Positions 3,254 through 34,666 of a DNA stretch of 38,005 bases are shown here, piece by piece; position 1 is the stretch's first letter; the number at the start of each line of letters is the position of its first letter. This DNA comes from Myxococcales bacterium (GTDB taxonomy: Bacteria; Myxococcota; UBA727; VGSZ01): NCBI GenBank assembly GCA_023248635.1, contig JAHFED010000058.1:1-38005 (forward strand), read 5' to 3'. The position numbers and the translations under genes were made by a program. Under the pieces are notes generated by a model. The model was given only the letters and a program-made list of their open reading frames with translations. It was not told where the DNA came from and made no database searches.

Positions 3254-3568
3254 GCCCGATCTCGCTGAACTTCGACCGCGGAGCGGTCTCGTCCATCTCC
3301 CTCGGGGATGCTCTTCTGGGAGGTCTGGTGCAGACCTCCCCCCCACGCCGGCGGAGCCGGACGCGGGGCCCCCCACCAACTCCGCGTTCCGCGGGCGCCC
3401 TTCACGCGCATCATCCCGCGTCTTTCCCATCTCGGAACGCGGTCGAACATCAAGCGGACGCGGGATGAGCCCCCGCAAGAACTTACGCAGCCCTGACAAA
3501 CGGATCAGGTCTTTTGGTTGTCTGATCGTTTGCAGCACGAGCCGCTGCACAGACCACCAGGAGACACC
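3254..3568. other. Non-coding gap with several perfect inverted repeats
   Basis: No credible gene is seen in this 315-base gap. It holds GACCGC 3274-3279 pairing with GCGGTC 3283-3288. A perfect 10-bp stem, GGGAGGTCTG 3318-3327 with CAGACCTCCC 3331-3340, is followed by CCGGC 3348-3352 pairing with GCCGG 3356-3360. TCATCCCGCGTC 3411-3422 pairs with GACGCGGGATGA 3457-3468. An imperfect AAACGGATCAG 3498-3508 / CTGATCGTTT 3522-3531 lies just upstream of the vWA gene. The 3311-3385 block is related to 30880-30960. Some hairpins may end the phosphodiesterase transcript, but no T-tract follows them. Confidence 0.7.
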
Positions 3569-30836: not shown

Positions 30837-31007
30837 CTAGAGCAGTTTCCGATTGCACTGATGGTGCAATCGGAAACTGCTCTTGTATTGCTCGGGGGCT
30901 GCGCCCCCGCCCTACGCCGGCAAGCCGGACGCAGGGTCCCACCCCATCCTTGCTCCCTCCGGTCGCGAGCGCTTTCTGGCAATCAGATCAAAAGGAAAGC
31001 GCTCTAG
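30837..31007. repeat. MITE-like element with CTAGAGC..TTTCC terminal inverted repeats
   Basis: The 171-base block starts with CTAGAGCAGTTTCC and ends with the inverse of CTAGAGCGCTTTCC (12 of 14 matching). It contains a perfect 20-bp palindrome at its left end, a stem CGGGGGC/GCCCCCG at 30893-30909, CCGGC/GCCGG at 30917-30928 and a 10-bp inverted repeat GAGCGCTTTC/GAAAGCGCTC at its right end. No coding frame is seen. It fills most of the divergent region between the DUF2269 gene and the flavoprotein gene. Whether it is mobile is an inference, since only one full copy is visible. Confidence 0.6.
30839..30883. repeat. Perfect 20-bp palindrome, 5-base loop
   Basis: AGAGCAGTTTCCGATTGCAC at 30839-30858 pairs perfectly with 30864-30883 around loop TGATG. 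The stem forms the left end of the MITE-like block. No T-tract follows on the plus strand and no gene ends just before it, so a terminator role is unlikely. Confidence 0.9.
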
Positions 31008-31085: not shown

Positions 31086-32426
31086 ATGCGCGCTTTCTAT
31101 GACGTCGTCGTCGTCGGGGCCGGGAGCGCGGGGGCTGCCAGCGCCCGCGCCCTTGCCCGCGGCGGATGGTCGGTGCTGCTGATCGACAAGCGGGCCGCGG
31201 GAGAGGCGGGGGCGCGCTGGGTCAACGCCGTGCCCCGCTGGATGTTCGAGCGCGCCGATGTGGCGCCCCCCTCGGGGGACGAGGAGCGCTCCCACGGCGG
31301 GCGCTATGTGCTGTGCGAGCCCAGCGGAGCACACCGCGTCGTCGTTTCCCGTTGCCCCACCACCTTCTTCGACATGCGATCGCTGGTGGCTCGGTTGCAA
31401 AGCGACGCCGTCGCTGCTGGGGCCGAGCTCGAAGGAGGCTGCGTCGTCGATGCCGTCGTCTTTTCACCGGGGCGCCAAACGCTGCGGCTGCGAGGACGCG
31501 AGGGCCTGGTCACAGTCGATTGCCGGCTCGTCGTCGACGCCTCGGGCTTTGGCGGCGCGGTGCGCTCCCGGGTGCCGGTGTTGGCAGCAGCCTGCGATCC
31601 CATCGCCGACAAAGACCTGTGTCTGGCGGCCCAAGAGGTGCGCAGCATCGCCGACGTCGACGGCGCGCGGTCCTTTCTGCGGCGCGAGGGACTGCAATCG
31701 GGCGAGCAGTTGGCCTACGTCGGCGTCGCTGGCGGCTACTCGACCCGCTTGATGCAGGTGGATCTCGAGCGCGGCGAAGTGGACATCCTCGGCGGCGCCA
31801 TCAAGGGCGTGGGATCGGGGCTGCAGCTGGTGAAAGACGTCGTCGACGCCCATCCCTGGATCGGCGCGCGCCTCTTTGGCGGCAGCAGCGTGATCCCCTT
31901 GCGCAGGCCTTACGACCTGCTCGGCGTCGCTGGCGTCGCGCTGGTCGGCGACGCAGCCTCGATGGTCTTTCCAGCCCACGGCAGCGGGGTCGGCGCCGGC
32001 CTCGTCGCGGCGCGCATGCTGGCCGACGTCGTGGCCGAGGTCGGCGATCCCGGCTCTGCCGACGTAGCCCGCCGCTACGGCCGCGTCTTTCACAGAGAGA
32101 TCGGGGCCCTCTTCGTCGCCTACGACGCCTTCCGCCGCGCCTCGCAGCTCTTGCAGGCCGACGACATCACGGAGCTCGTGCGCGCCGGCTTCATGAACGA
32201 AGCATCGACCCACGACGCCCTCGCGCAGCGGATGCCCCGCTTCTCAGCAGCCAGCTCCAAGGCCTTGGCCCAGGCTGCTCTGCGCGCGCCAGGCCTCGCC
32301 AAAACCATGGGCCCGACGGTGGCCCGCATGCTGGCCTCGTGGGCGGTATCGCGTGCGCATCCGGCGACGCGCCGCCGCGGTGCCCTGGTGGGCCGCGGGT
32401 TGGATCATCTGATCGGCGCCCGCTGA
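31086..32426 (+). CDS. FAD-dependent oxidoreductase, geranylgeranyl-reductase-like
   Basis: The product has 446 residues. The N-terminal Rossmann fold DVVVVGAGSAGAASARAL (GxGxxG) is followed by SVLLIDKR. A second FAD contact, VALVGDAASMVFPAHGSGVGAGLVAARMLADVV, places the GD motif at about residue 290. The layout matches the geranylgeranyl reductase/FixC-like branch of flavoproteins, which reduce isoprenoid double bonds or act as monooxygenases. The substrate-binding part is divergent. A lipid or isoprenoid role would suit the neighbouring UGT, but this is speculative. Upstream lies the MITE-like element, downstream the rplC terminator. Confidence 0.82.
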   Translation: MRAFYDVVVVGAGSAGAASARALARGGWSVLLIDKRAAGEAGARWVNAVPRWMFERADVAPPSGDEERSHGGRYVLCEPSGAHRVVVSRCPTTFFDMRSLVARLQSDAVAAGAELEGGCVVDAVVFSPGRQTLRLRGREGLVTVDCRLVVDASGFGGAVRSRVPVLAAACDPIADKDLCLAAQEVRSIADVDGARSFLRREGLQSGEQLAYVGVAGGYSTRLMQVDLERGEVDILGGAIKGVGSGLQLVKDVVDAHPWIGARLFGGSSVIPLRRPYDLLGVAGVALVGDAASMVFPAHGSGVGAGLVAARMLADVVAEVGDPGSADVARRYGRVFHREIGALFVAYDAFRRASQLLQADDITELVRAGFMNEASTHDALAQRMPRFSAASSKALAQAALRAPGLAKTMGPTVARMLASWAVSRAHPATRRRGALVGRGLDHLIGAR

Positions 32427-32444: not shown

Positions 32445-32484
32445 AAAAAAAACGGGCCGCCAAGGAACCTCCTCGACGGCCCGC
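32445..32484 (-). terminator. Rho-independent terminator of rplC
   Basis: Read on the minus strand, CGGGCCG (32483-32477) pairs with CGGCCCG (32459-32453) and is followed by eight T (32452-32445). It lies 17 bases past the rplC stop. The stem also ends 19 bases after the convergent flavoprotein gene, but the T-tract orientation serves rplC. Confidence 0.85.
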
Positions 32485-32500
32485 ATTCAGCAGCGAAGAA

Positions 32501-33250
32501 CTATTTCTTCGGCTTGGCGGGACCAGAGCCGGCAGCCTTCGAGGCCTTCATCGGATTCTTCGACAGAATCTGAGCCTCAGAACGCAGAGCCCGACCCTTC
32601 TTCGCCGTGTGCTCTGAGGGCAGGATCTCGATCAAACCGCCATTGGCACCGGGGACGGCGCCGCGGACGTAGATCAGACCTTTCTCCTCGTCGAGCTTCA
32701 CCACGGCGCAGTTGAGGACGGTGACGACCTCGTTGCCCATGCGACCCGACATGCGCTTGCCCTTGTGCACCTTGCCGGGCGTGGCGCGGCAGCCGATCGA
32801 TCCGCCGTGGCGGAAGTACTCGTGGGTACCGTGGGTGGCGCGAAAGCCCTTCATGTGGTGGCGCTTCATGACGCCGGCGGTGCCGCGTCCCTTGGACGTG
32901 CCGCTGATGTCGATGGCGGTGGCGCCCTTGATGACGTCGAAGCCGATGGCGTCGCCGCTGTTGAGCTTGCCGAGCTGGGCGTCGTCGAGGCGGAACTCGC
33001 GCACGAAGCGCTGCACGGGAACGTTGTGCTTCACGAAGTGACCGGTGCGCGGCTTGTTGACCAGCTTCTCGCGGATGGTCCCGCTGCCCACTTGGACGGC
33101 GTTGTAGCCATCGGTGGCCACGGTCTTTTTCTGAACGATGGTGTTCTTCTCGACGAGGAGAACGGTGACCGGCACGCGGACGCCGTCTTCGGTGAAGATC
33201 TGGGTCATGCCGATTTTTTTGGCCAAGAGGCCGAGCTTGTTCGCGGTCAT
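32501..33250 (-). CDS. rplC: 50S ribosomal protein L3, solitary gene
   Basis: The product has 249 residues, longer than the usual about 210 because of a Lys/Ala/Pro-rich C-terminal extension (KASKAAGSGPAKPKK). The L3 landmarks are intact: LLAKKIGMTQIF at the N-terminus, KGRGTAGVMKRHHMKGFRATHGTHEYFRHGGSIGC, TPGKVHKGKRMSGRMGNEVVTV and YVRGAVPGANGG. The E. coli methylated Gln region (GQNQTPG) reads GCRATPG here. TTGGAGTTGTG before ATG 33250 gives a GGAG site five bases away. Unlike the usual S10 operon arrangement, no ribosomal gene flanks it, and it has its own promoter (33335-33362) and terminator (32445-32484). It could be the sole L3 gene relocated, or a second copy. Confidence 0.96.
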   Translation of the reverse strand: MTANKLGLLAKKIGMTQIFTEDGVRVPVTVLLVEKNTIVQKKTVATDGYNAVQVGSGTIREKLVNKPRTGHFVKHNVPVQRFVREFRLDDAQLGKLNSGDAIGFDVIKGATAIDISGTSKGRGTAGVMKRHHMKGFRATHGTHEYFRHGGSIGCRATPGKVHKGKRMSGRMGNEVVTVLNCAVVKLDEEKGLIYVRGAVPGANGGLIEILPSEHTAKKGRALRSEAQILSKNPMKASKAAGSGPAKPKK

Positions 33251-33334
33251 CACAACTCCAAGGGTCATTCGCGCGCCTCGCTCAGAGCGGGGTGGTTCGC
33301 CAGAGGACCCGATGTTTCGAAACGGGGAGCGCGG

Positions 33335-33362
33335 ACCCTAGCCGAAGACGGCGCCGGATCAA
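33335..33362 (-). promoter_or_regulatory. Probable rplC promoter (TTGATC-16-TAGGGT)
   Basis: On the minus strand TTGATC (33362-33357) is followed after 16 bases by TAGGGT (33340-33335) and then CCGCGC. This gives an untranslated leader of about 80 bases before rplC. The same TAGGGTCCGCGC core with a TTGANC -35 occurs upstream of mdh, which strengthens both calls. Confidence 0.55.
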
Positions 33363-33433
33363 GCCCGCACTGCGGCGCCCAAATGTCCGTGAAGGGGCCT
33401 TTCGCCGCAGCGTTTTCTTGCCGATCAGGGCCC

Positions 33434-34666
33434 ATGCGCTTTGCCCTCGCAGCCGTCGCCGTCGTCGTCGTTGCCTGTGCTCCGCAGCAGGAGCCCGCAG
33501 ACCCCTCCGACGATCCCGCGGATTGGGACGTCGACAGCGCCGTTGATTGGGTGCCCGTGCTCTCGGCCCCACGCTTCGTCGTGCCCGGCGATGCCCTGCC
33601 CCGCGACCAGCGACCGCTGCTGTCGAACAACAACGTCGCCATCACCTTTCACGAGGGCAGCTTGTTTTTAGCCTGGCGCTCGGCCGAGACCCATTTCGCT
33701 TCGGCAAACGCCGAGATGCACGTGATTCGCTCCGACGACGGCGGCGTCACCTGGGCTTCGGAGGCCCTGTTCACCCTCGGCTCTGATGTGCGCGAGCCCC
33801 AGCTCTTCACGCTCGGGGGCGAGCTGTGGCTGACCTTTTTTCAAGGCGGCACCAACAAGTTCGCCTTCGAGCCGCGCTCCTTGTGGCGGGCCCACCGGCA
33901 GGGCGATGGACGCTGGTCCGACGTCGAAGCGTGGGGGCGCGAGCACGAAGTGCCTTGGGACCTGAAGATCCGCGGCGGGCGCGCGTTGCTCACGAGCTAC
34001 AGCGGCGGCCACTACGACTTCACCGAGCAGAGCAGCGGCCTCGCCGTGCATCTGCAAACTTCCGACGACGGCCTGAGCTGGAACGACGTCGACGACGCCA
34101 TCCCCGATCTCTATGTCGGCGGCGCCTCCGAAGCGGGCTTCGAGATCGACGACGACGGCAGCCTGTGGGCCCTCTTGCGCAACGAAGACGGCGACGGCTC
34201 GGGCTTTGGCTCGCTGCTTTGTCACAGCGCGGGGACCAGTCTGTCGTCGTGGGACTGCCCCACGACGTCGGATCCCGAGCGCTACGACTCGCCCAAGATG
34301 CTGCGGCACGGCGATGACCTCTTCGTGGTGGCCCGGCGCGACATCGGTGGACCCTTCGATCGGGGCGAAGCCGAGCGCGACCTCGCCGACCGACGCCTCG
34401 ATTACAACGCCGACTATTGGAACCGGCCCAAGCGCACCTCCCTCTACCACGTCGACAAGGAGAGCCAGAGCCTGCAGCACGTCCTCGATTTGCCCTCGGC
34501 CGGCGACACCGCGTTTCCCTCGATCCGCCGCACCGGCGCGCACTCGTTTCTGATCGCCAACTACACCTCGCCCGTCGACGATCCCGAGCGCACCTGGGTG
34601 CAGGGTCAAGACGCCGTCGACGGCACCAGCATCTATTTGATCGACCTCACCTTCCAAGAACCCTGA
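33434..34666 (+). CDS. Sialidase-fold (Asp-box) lipoprotein
   Basis: The product has 410 residues. The signal MRFALAAVAVVVVAC with Cys15 indicates a lipoprotein, followed by an acidic linker (PSDDPADWDVDS). Asp boxes typical of beta-propeller sialidases and BNR-repeat proteins are visible: SDDGGVTW at about residue 100 and SDDGLSW at about 210, with SAPRFVVPGDALPRDQRPLLSNNNVAITF before them. The arginine triad of true sialidases cannot be assigned with confidence. It is therefore best called an Asp-box propeller protein, possibly a glycan-binding or glycan-cleaving surface protein. The longer open frame upstream is antisense to rplC. Confidence 0.72.
   Translation: MRFALAAVAVVVVACAPQQEPADPSDDPADWDVDSAVDWVPVLSAPRFVVPGDALPRDQRPLLSNNNVAITFHEGSLFLAWRSAETHFASANAEMHVIRSDDGGVTWASEALFTLGSDVREPQLFTLGGELWLTFFQGGTNKFAFEPRSLWRAHRQGDGRWSDVEAWGREHEVPWDLKIRGGRALLTSYSGGHYDFTEQSSGLAVHLQTSDDGLSWNDVDDAIPDLYVGGASEAGFEIDDDGSLWALLRNEDGDGSGFGSLLCHSAGTSLSSWDCPTTSDPERYDSPKMLRHGDDLFVVARRDIGGPFDRGEAERDLADRRLDYNADYWNRPKRTSLYHVDKESQSLQHVLDLPSAGDTAFPSIRRTGAHSFLIANYTSPVDDPERTWVQGQDAVDGTSIYLIDLTFQEP

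Follow-up and report, generated by a model that had tools for sequence, protein, structure and literature searches.

The window analysed here, a stretch of 38,005 bases, is the whole of contig C109 in a 6.53-Mb myxobacterial genome (135 contigs, 96.7% complete). A minus-strand open reading frame within it matches the bacterial uL3 equivalog model TIGR03625 at 245.2 bits, against a cut-off of 142.9, identifying it as rplC (Table 1). The frame as listed opens at an in-frame ATG at 33268 and stops at 32501, giving 255 aa; the ATG at 33250, which would yield a protein of 249 aa beginning MTANKLG, is the better candidate for the start, because TTGGAG precedes it and relatives start at about the same position. 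As the original prediction held, the gene stands alone between unrelated neighbours. Downstream is a convergent gene for a FAD-dependent oxidoreductase (31086-32426, plus strand), and upstream a divergent open reading frame without a match in Pfam (33434-34666, plus strand), with pgk and mdh lying farther along the window, beyond these immediate neighbours.

The private promoter and strong terminator that had been suggested for the gene were both recovered. The terminator region (71 nt) has a folding energy of -37.7 kcal/mol and a z-score of -3.43, equalled by none of 200 shuffles. A generic sigma-70 scan detected no promoter for rplC, although sequences corresponding to the putative promoter in Table 1 are present in the two other members of the family whose rplC is assembled, namely TTGACG-N16-TACGGT in G002 and TTGACG-N16-TAGGGT in G003. 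The pattern TTGA[CT]N-N15-18-TANNNT, composed after the sequences had been seen, occurs in 5 of the 13 loci of the order, where shuffles give an expectation of 0.45, and in 12 of 57 other loci, where the expectation is 0.37.

Table 1. Features of the rplC locus, in coordinates of the window
Feature	Position	Strand	Basis
Intrinsic terminator of rplC	32452..32484	-	15 pairs, then T run
rplC, ribosomal protein uL3, 249 aa (predicted start)	32501..33250	-	TIGR03625 245.2 bits; start by Shine-Dalgarno and G002/G003 comparison
Codons for C-terminal motif KNPMKASK	32537..32560	-	single pattern match in own genome
Conserved structured leader RNA (model R1 match, to start codon)	33248..33311	-	covariation; model searches
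Shine-Dalgarno site TTGGAG, immediately 3' of P1	33256..33261	-	sequence
Leader internal loop, CUCUG (5' strand) and GAAU (3' strand)	33301..33305; 33270-33267	-	alignment of 11
Leader stem P1, 5' strand GGGUC	33306..33310	-	pairs with GACCC 33266-33262
Putative promoter TTGATC-N16-TAGGGT	33335..33362	-	counterparts in G002, G003

The lysine-rich C-terminal extension noticed at the outset is also real, running for 40 residues past the end of the TIGR03625 profile match. Its motif KNPMKASK was found in all 13 rplC loci read from the order (once as RNPMKISK), and this or a close form is present in 27 of 57 solitary rplC loci and absent from the other 30. At the DNA level, 10 of 145 genomes, that of the window among them, carry a pattern match for the motif at the end of the L3 gene (families f1, f3, f4 and f5), with differing codons; an eleventh match, in G137, lies elsewhere in its genome. 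Besides the window's order, the motif occurs in other Myxococcales loci and in a single locus of the Acidaminococcaceae (Bacillota), L164. A tie between the tail motif and the solitary state was ruled out, as L164 combines KNPMKASK with an rplD immediately after rplC, and more than half of the solitary loci (30 of 57) do without the motif.

A whole-genome search found a single uL3 gene. On contig C18, which carries the gene for L4, the order is tuf-rpsJ-rplD-rplW; rplC is missing and 59 bases separate rpsJ from rplD, such that the rplC of the window lies outside its usual place in the S10 operon, between rpsJ and rplD. Of the two origins first suggested, relocation or paralogy, relocation is therefore upheld, while no second L3 was found to support a paralogue. 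The S10 cluster of the window's family has a second break, between rplW and rplB. The two genes are on separate contigs in the window genome (loci L003, 7559-8133 on C18, and L176 on C41) and 6.2 kb apart in G003, and rplB was not found in the 9-12 kb after rplW in G001 and G002; elsewhere in the phylum, the spacing is 31-188 bases in 17 of 17 loci read. Dispersed repeats that follow rplW on C18 occur in the window too: those at 3255-3468, 30837-31006 and 2145-2295 are 74-99% identical to the C18 copies (L003 7635-9585) and to a 34-base tandem array (L003 15372-15711).

Few gene orders in bacteria are as well conserved as rpsJ-rplC-rplD. The absence of rplC from the cluster is not a peculiarity of this genome, since it extends across the phylum; wide occurrence of this kind is what the original prediction had itself named as evidence against it. 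L3 was found in 139 of 145 genomes of the phylum (not in 6) and L4 in 141 (not in 4), and in none of the 136 genomes with both are the two genes adjacent. They are on different contigs in 91 genomes, cases which by themselves might mask adjacency at contig ends, and on the same contig in 45, with a median distance of 71 kb between the starts of the matches (range 5.9 kb to 1.8 Mb). More than one L3 match was seen in only three of the 145 genomes, one gene being split over two contigs (G152) and the others accompanied by one extra fragment each (G039, G043). Wherever the rplD locus was read, in 21 of 21 cases, rpsJ directly preceded rplD without L3 in the locus, and the solitary state was seen in single-contig genomes as well (e.g. 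G057, G048, G094 and G063). Among the best 80 of 262 named loci in one scan, 56 were canonical, with rplC next to rplD, and came from other phyla, while the 24 solitary loci carried titles of Myxococcales, Myxococcota or Deltaproteobacteria, plus two 'Proteobacteria', one 'Euryarchaeota' and one 'bacterium'. Automated sorting had given 55 canonical loci, L167 being the 56th, with an rplD reading frame that had been drawn too long. For L164 the canonical state is read from rplD alone, as the contig begins inside rplC.

The L3-L4 distance is no more than 210 kb in 43 of the 45 same-contig genomes, counting G012 as circular (11.5 kb when taken round the contig ends; 300 kb if linear), and these short distances hint at a local move of rplC, though many of the genomes are close relatives that share synteny. 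A single-protein L3 tree (77 rows, leaving out two of 57 phylum loci) groups the gene of the window with its genus, family and order. Horizontal replacement of L3 is disfavoured by this placement. In the same tree the solitary genes do not form one clade, requiring three changes, at least two of them forced; hence this tree, too weak for such a test, does not prove a single origin of the relocation. We propose that rplC left the S10 operon early in the phylum Myxococcota, and has been a separate transcription unit since.

Between the promoter and the Shine-Dalgarno site lies a conserved leader, a new part of the locus that was absent from the original prediction. It is predicted to comprise a 5-bp stem, an internal loop of C[U/G]CUG against GAAU, and a variable hairpin, the pattern in the order being NNGUC-CUCUG-hairpin-GAAU-GACNN followed by the Shine-Dalgarno site. 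The alignment A1 holds 11 of the 13 loci of the order, omitting G003, with its long hairpin, and G012, without a leader. In these sequences P1 is paired in 100% of cells, three of its five pairs having changes on both sides; the eight leader pairs together are paired in 96.6% of cells, and the 5' loop strand is invariant except in one column (U or G). Double-change cells number 24, where shuffles give 8.3 +/- 2.3 and slid controls 2-7, and the covariation score is 0.741 against 0.260 +/- 0.048, the structure having been derived from the same 11 sequences as were used for the pair counts. Two coarser measures are unremarkable: the six pairs with a double change were reached by 63 of 500 shuffles, and the 11 further pair types by 210 of 500. 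The predicted secondary structure is supported by this covariation.

The leader is confined to one gene. A covariance model, R1, searched against 79 local sources (1.32 Mb), gave 12 matches, all of them rplC leaders of the order and including that of G003, which was outside its training set; there was no match in the S10 loci among these sources. Against the 145 whole genomes R1 matched 11, once each and always just upstream of rplC, with G003 missed under the stricter filters of that search, and in the genomes searched with the model, at the filters used, no leader was found before rplD or any other gene. The leader is thus present in 12 of the 13 genomes of the order with an assembled rplC, once per genome, and in the consistent position typical of r-leaders. 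The exception, G012 (0.31 Mb; a 311,743-base single contig; L084), has a solitary rplC and the tail motif, and no recognisable leader was found there. The leader is therefore not needed for the solitary state, given this genome and the different or unrecognisable leaders of most other families. A strict text descriptor, composed from the order's own leaders, was run over both strands of 60 loci (2.1 Mb, window excluded) and gave 14 matches, comprising ten rplC leaders of the order, one site about 50 bases before rplC in G017 (f7), and three elsewhere. Rfam gave no match at gathering score in the whole window, and on 33200-33430 only an opposite-strand chance match (12.6 bits, threshold 55).

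Other families differ in what surrounds their solitary rplC. In f6, f16, f20, f22 and f23 the gene is preceded by a leader of a second type, GGGACC[A/U]ACC-hairpin-GUCCC (seven sequences aligned), and a third pattern, ACGUCCUCC...GGCGGACCAAUGCGAGG, was seen in f18; the loci concerned are L041, L046, L049, L051, L036, L087 and L192. On the downstream side, 18 of 57 solitary loci, belonging to another branch, have an rlmE-like gene after rplC in the same orientation, with alignments starting 22-285 bases after rplC (L107, L105, L109, L103, L117, L135, L111 and L127 among them). The name, that of the 23S U2552 methyltransferase, is that of the best NCBIfam match, which falls under that model's cut-off; the match to Pfam FtsJ is above its own. 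In L036 an RluA-family pseudouridine synthase gene takes its place. Within the order, a small protein is encoded after rplC in eight loci, including L079 (10548-10934) and L080 (9282-9572), where it has 96-128 aa; no match was found in Pfam for the L079 member or in NCBIfam for both, and the protein is absent from the rplC locus of the window.

The internal loop of the leader is predicted to be a C-loop, having the features given in the excerpts of PMC8983868 and PMC3854523: it is asymmetric, has C first in its longer strand, and is closed by Watson-Crick pairs. It departs from the motif in that, in the leader of the order, the inner side of the loop carries additional residues (G, and GA). 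The excerpt of PMC8983868 models the C-loop on 23S positions 2680-2684/2725-2727, and reports C-loops in many rRNAs. E. coli has UCACU/AAA at this place, and the homologous place in the window genome reads GAAC-CUCU-GG...CC-AU-GUUC, with the loop CUCU/AU. We take these positions to be helix H96. One bacterial mRNA also has a C-loop, in the thrS operator.

Twelve of the 13 loci of the order have a simpler core, consisting of a C-G closed stem with C[U/G/A]CU against A[U/C/A]. This core also occurs in 8 of 57 other loci against 0.37 expected from shuffles, a post hoc comparison, as the descriptor was composed after the leaders had been seen. Seven loci with an unplaceable start or a truncated leader had been dropped from this count; with two f13 loci discounted for a promoter-like stretch, f15, f24, f26, f29 and f31 (two genomes) remain. 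The f31 leaders (e.g. GGAAC-CUCU-GCG...CGC-AC-GUUCC) are closest to H96. In the 23S stretch of G003 (2,950 nt) the core descriptor has one match, GGAC-CUCU...AU-GUUC, within H96; one or more matches were likewise produced by 19.4% of 500 shuffles.

Besides the matches in shuffled sequences, several observations count against mimicry. Firstly, the likeness is not unique to H96, because C-loops occur in many rRNAs, and E. coli H96 itself fails the core descriptor. Secondly, the variable loop position disagrees between leader and H96 in G003 and G006. Thirdly, the second leader type of other families is unlike H96: in the genomes grouped with it (G043, G046, G049 and G039, the last with a leader truncated by a contig end) H96 has a CGCUGG loop, and hence leader and rRNA disagree. 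Fourthly, according to the excerpt of PMC9687910, domains 0 and VI seem to gain strength as uL3 occupancy rises, 'except H96', an exception that weakens the case for uL3 binding an H96 mimic, and the excerpt of PMC9508819 names H95 as the yeast Rpl3 site in the H96 region. Mimicry of rRNA by the leader is possible but unproven.

Hence rplC is a single-copy gene, solitary wherever this could be tested, with a covarying RNA placed exclusively before it. The explanation we consider the most probable, albeit with appreciable doubt, is that rplC left the S10 operon early, and now forms a solitary unit with its own candidate uL3-binding autoregulatory leader before the Shine-Dalgarno site. On leaving, rplC would have lost the regulation of the operon. 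In the window the sequence supports its transcription alone, from its own promoter to its own terminator, as well as folding of the nascent mRNA into P1 and P2 beside the Shine-Dalgarno site. Surplus free uL3 would most likely bind the leader loop, blocking ribosome access and hindering initiation, such that uL3 would set its own level. The leader may thereby have replaced S10-operon control in the window's order. We infer the ligand, the repression and the translational level of action; uL3 would be the ligand because the gene behind the leader is a lone ribosomal protein gene (the 'Only' basis of ligand assignment in PMC7247131). A more specific version is distinctly doubtful, though conceivable: that this is a uL3-specific autogenous leader, unrecorded in our searches, whose C-loop imitates H96 of domain VI and was gained after rplC escaped the S10 operon, so that free uL3 would weigh unfilled rRNA sites against its own mRNA, with versions of the core recurring in several families.

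It is also conceivable, if rather unlikely, that the leader regulates rplC through something other than uL3: a different ribosomal protein, some other RNA-binding protein, or, in an element governing translation rate or RNA stability, no ligand. P1 ends ahead of the Shine-Dalgarno site, so the conserved fold alone leaves repression unexplained, and the exception made for H96 in the excerpt of PMC9687910 points the same way; the occurrence of the leader solely before rplC in the genomes searched, and not before rplD or other genes, argues against this. Less probable again is a drift of gene order without regulatory meaning, the leader then being just a 5' untranslated region that happens to be conserved. 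The families do vary in their leaders and neighbours, as with the rlmE-like gene, but the compensatory changes in P1 and P2, over leaders of 27% to 68% G+C, are hard to reconcile with it. The unusual position of rplC might suggest that it is a diverged additional L3, paralogous to a true gene in the S10 cluster, yet this is very improbable with one L3 at 96.7% completeness, one in nearly all relatives, and only 59 bases between rpsJ and rplD. Misassembly or binning artefact, which a genome in 135 contigs could invite, is hardly credible when the same state is seen in single-contig genomes and in the two other members of the family whose rplC is assembled, and the L3 of the window groups with its genus, family and order.

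The proposed autoregulatory leader of rplC resembles known autogenous r-leaders, as described in the excerpt of PMC7247131, in being a covarying RNA directly before a lone ribosomal protein gene, with a possible likeness to rRNA. It differs in that Table 1 of that source has no uL3 ligand, and rplC there only in an archaeal operon with an L4 leader. Among the open-access papers listed, no title or opening of an abstract reported a solitary rplC, and no uL3 leader was found; the excerpt of PMC2330069 contains nothing on ribosomal gene order. The S10 operon of the E. coli type is under L4 control. It contains rplC in canonical genomes, whereas in the window rplC is outside the cluster, and R1 matches no S10 locus searched. 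In the excerpt of PMC10931766, uL3 is mentioned solely for its place among the early assembly proteins. The solitary rplC of these bacteria is a natural experiment in how stoichiometry holds once the gene of an early-assembly protein escapes operon feedback, and, if control by the leader is true, uL3 would join the ribosomal proteins that have an RNA switch of their own.
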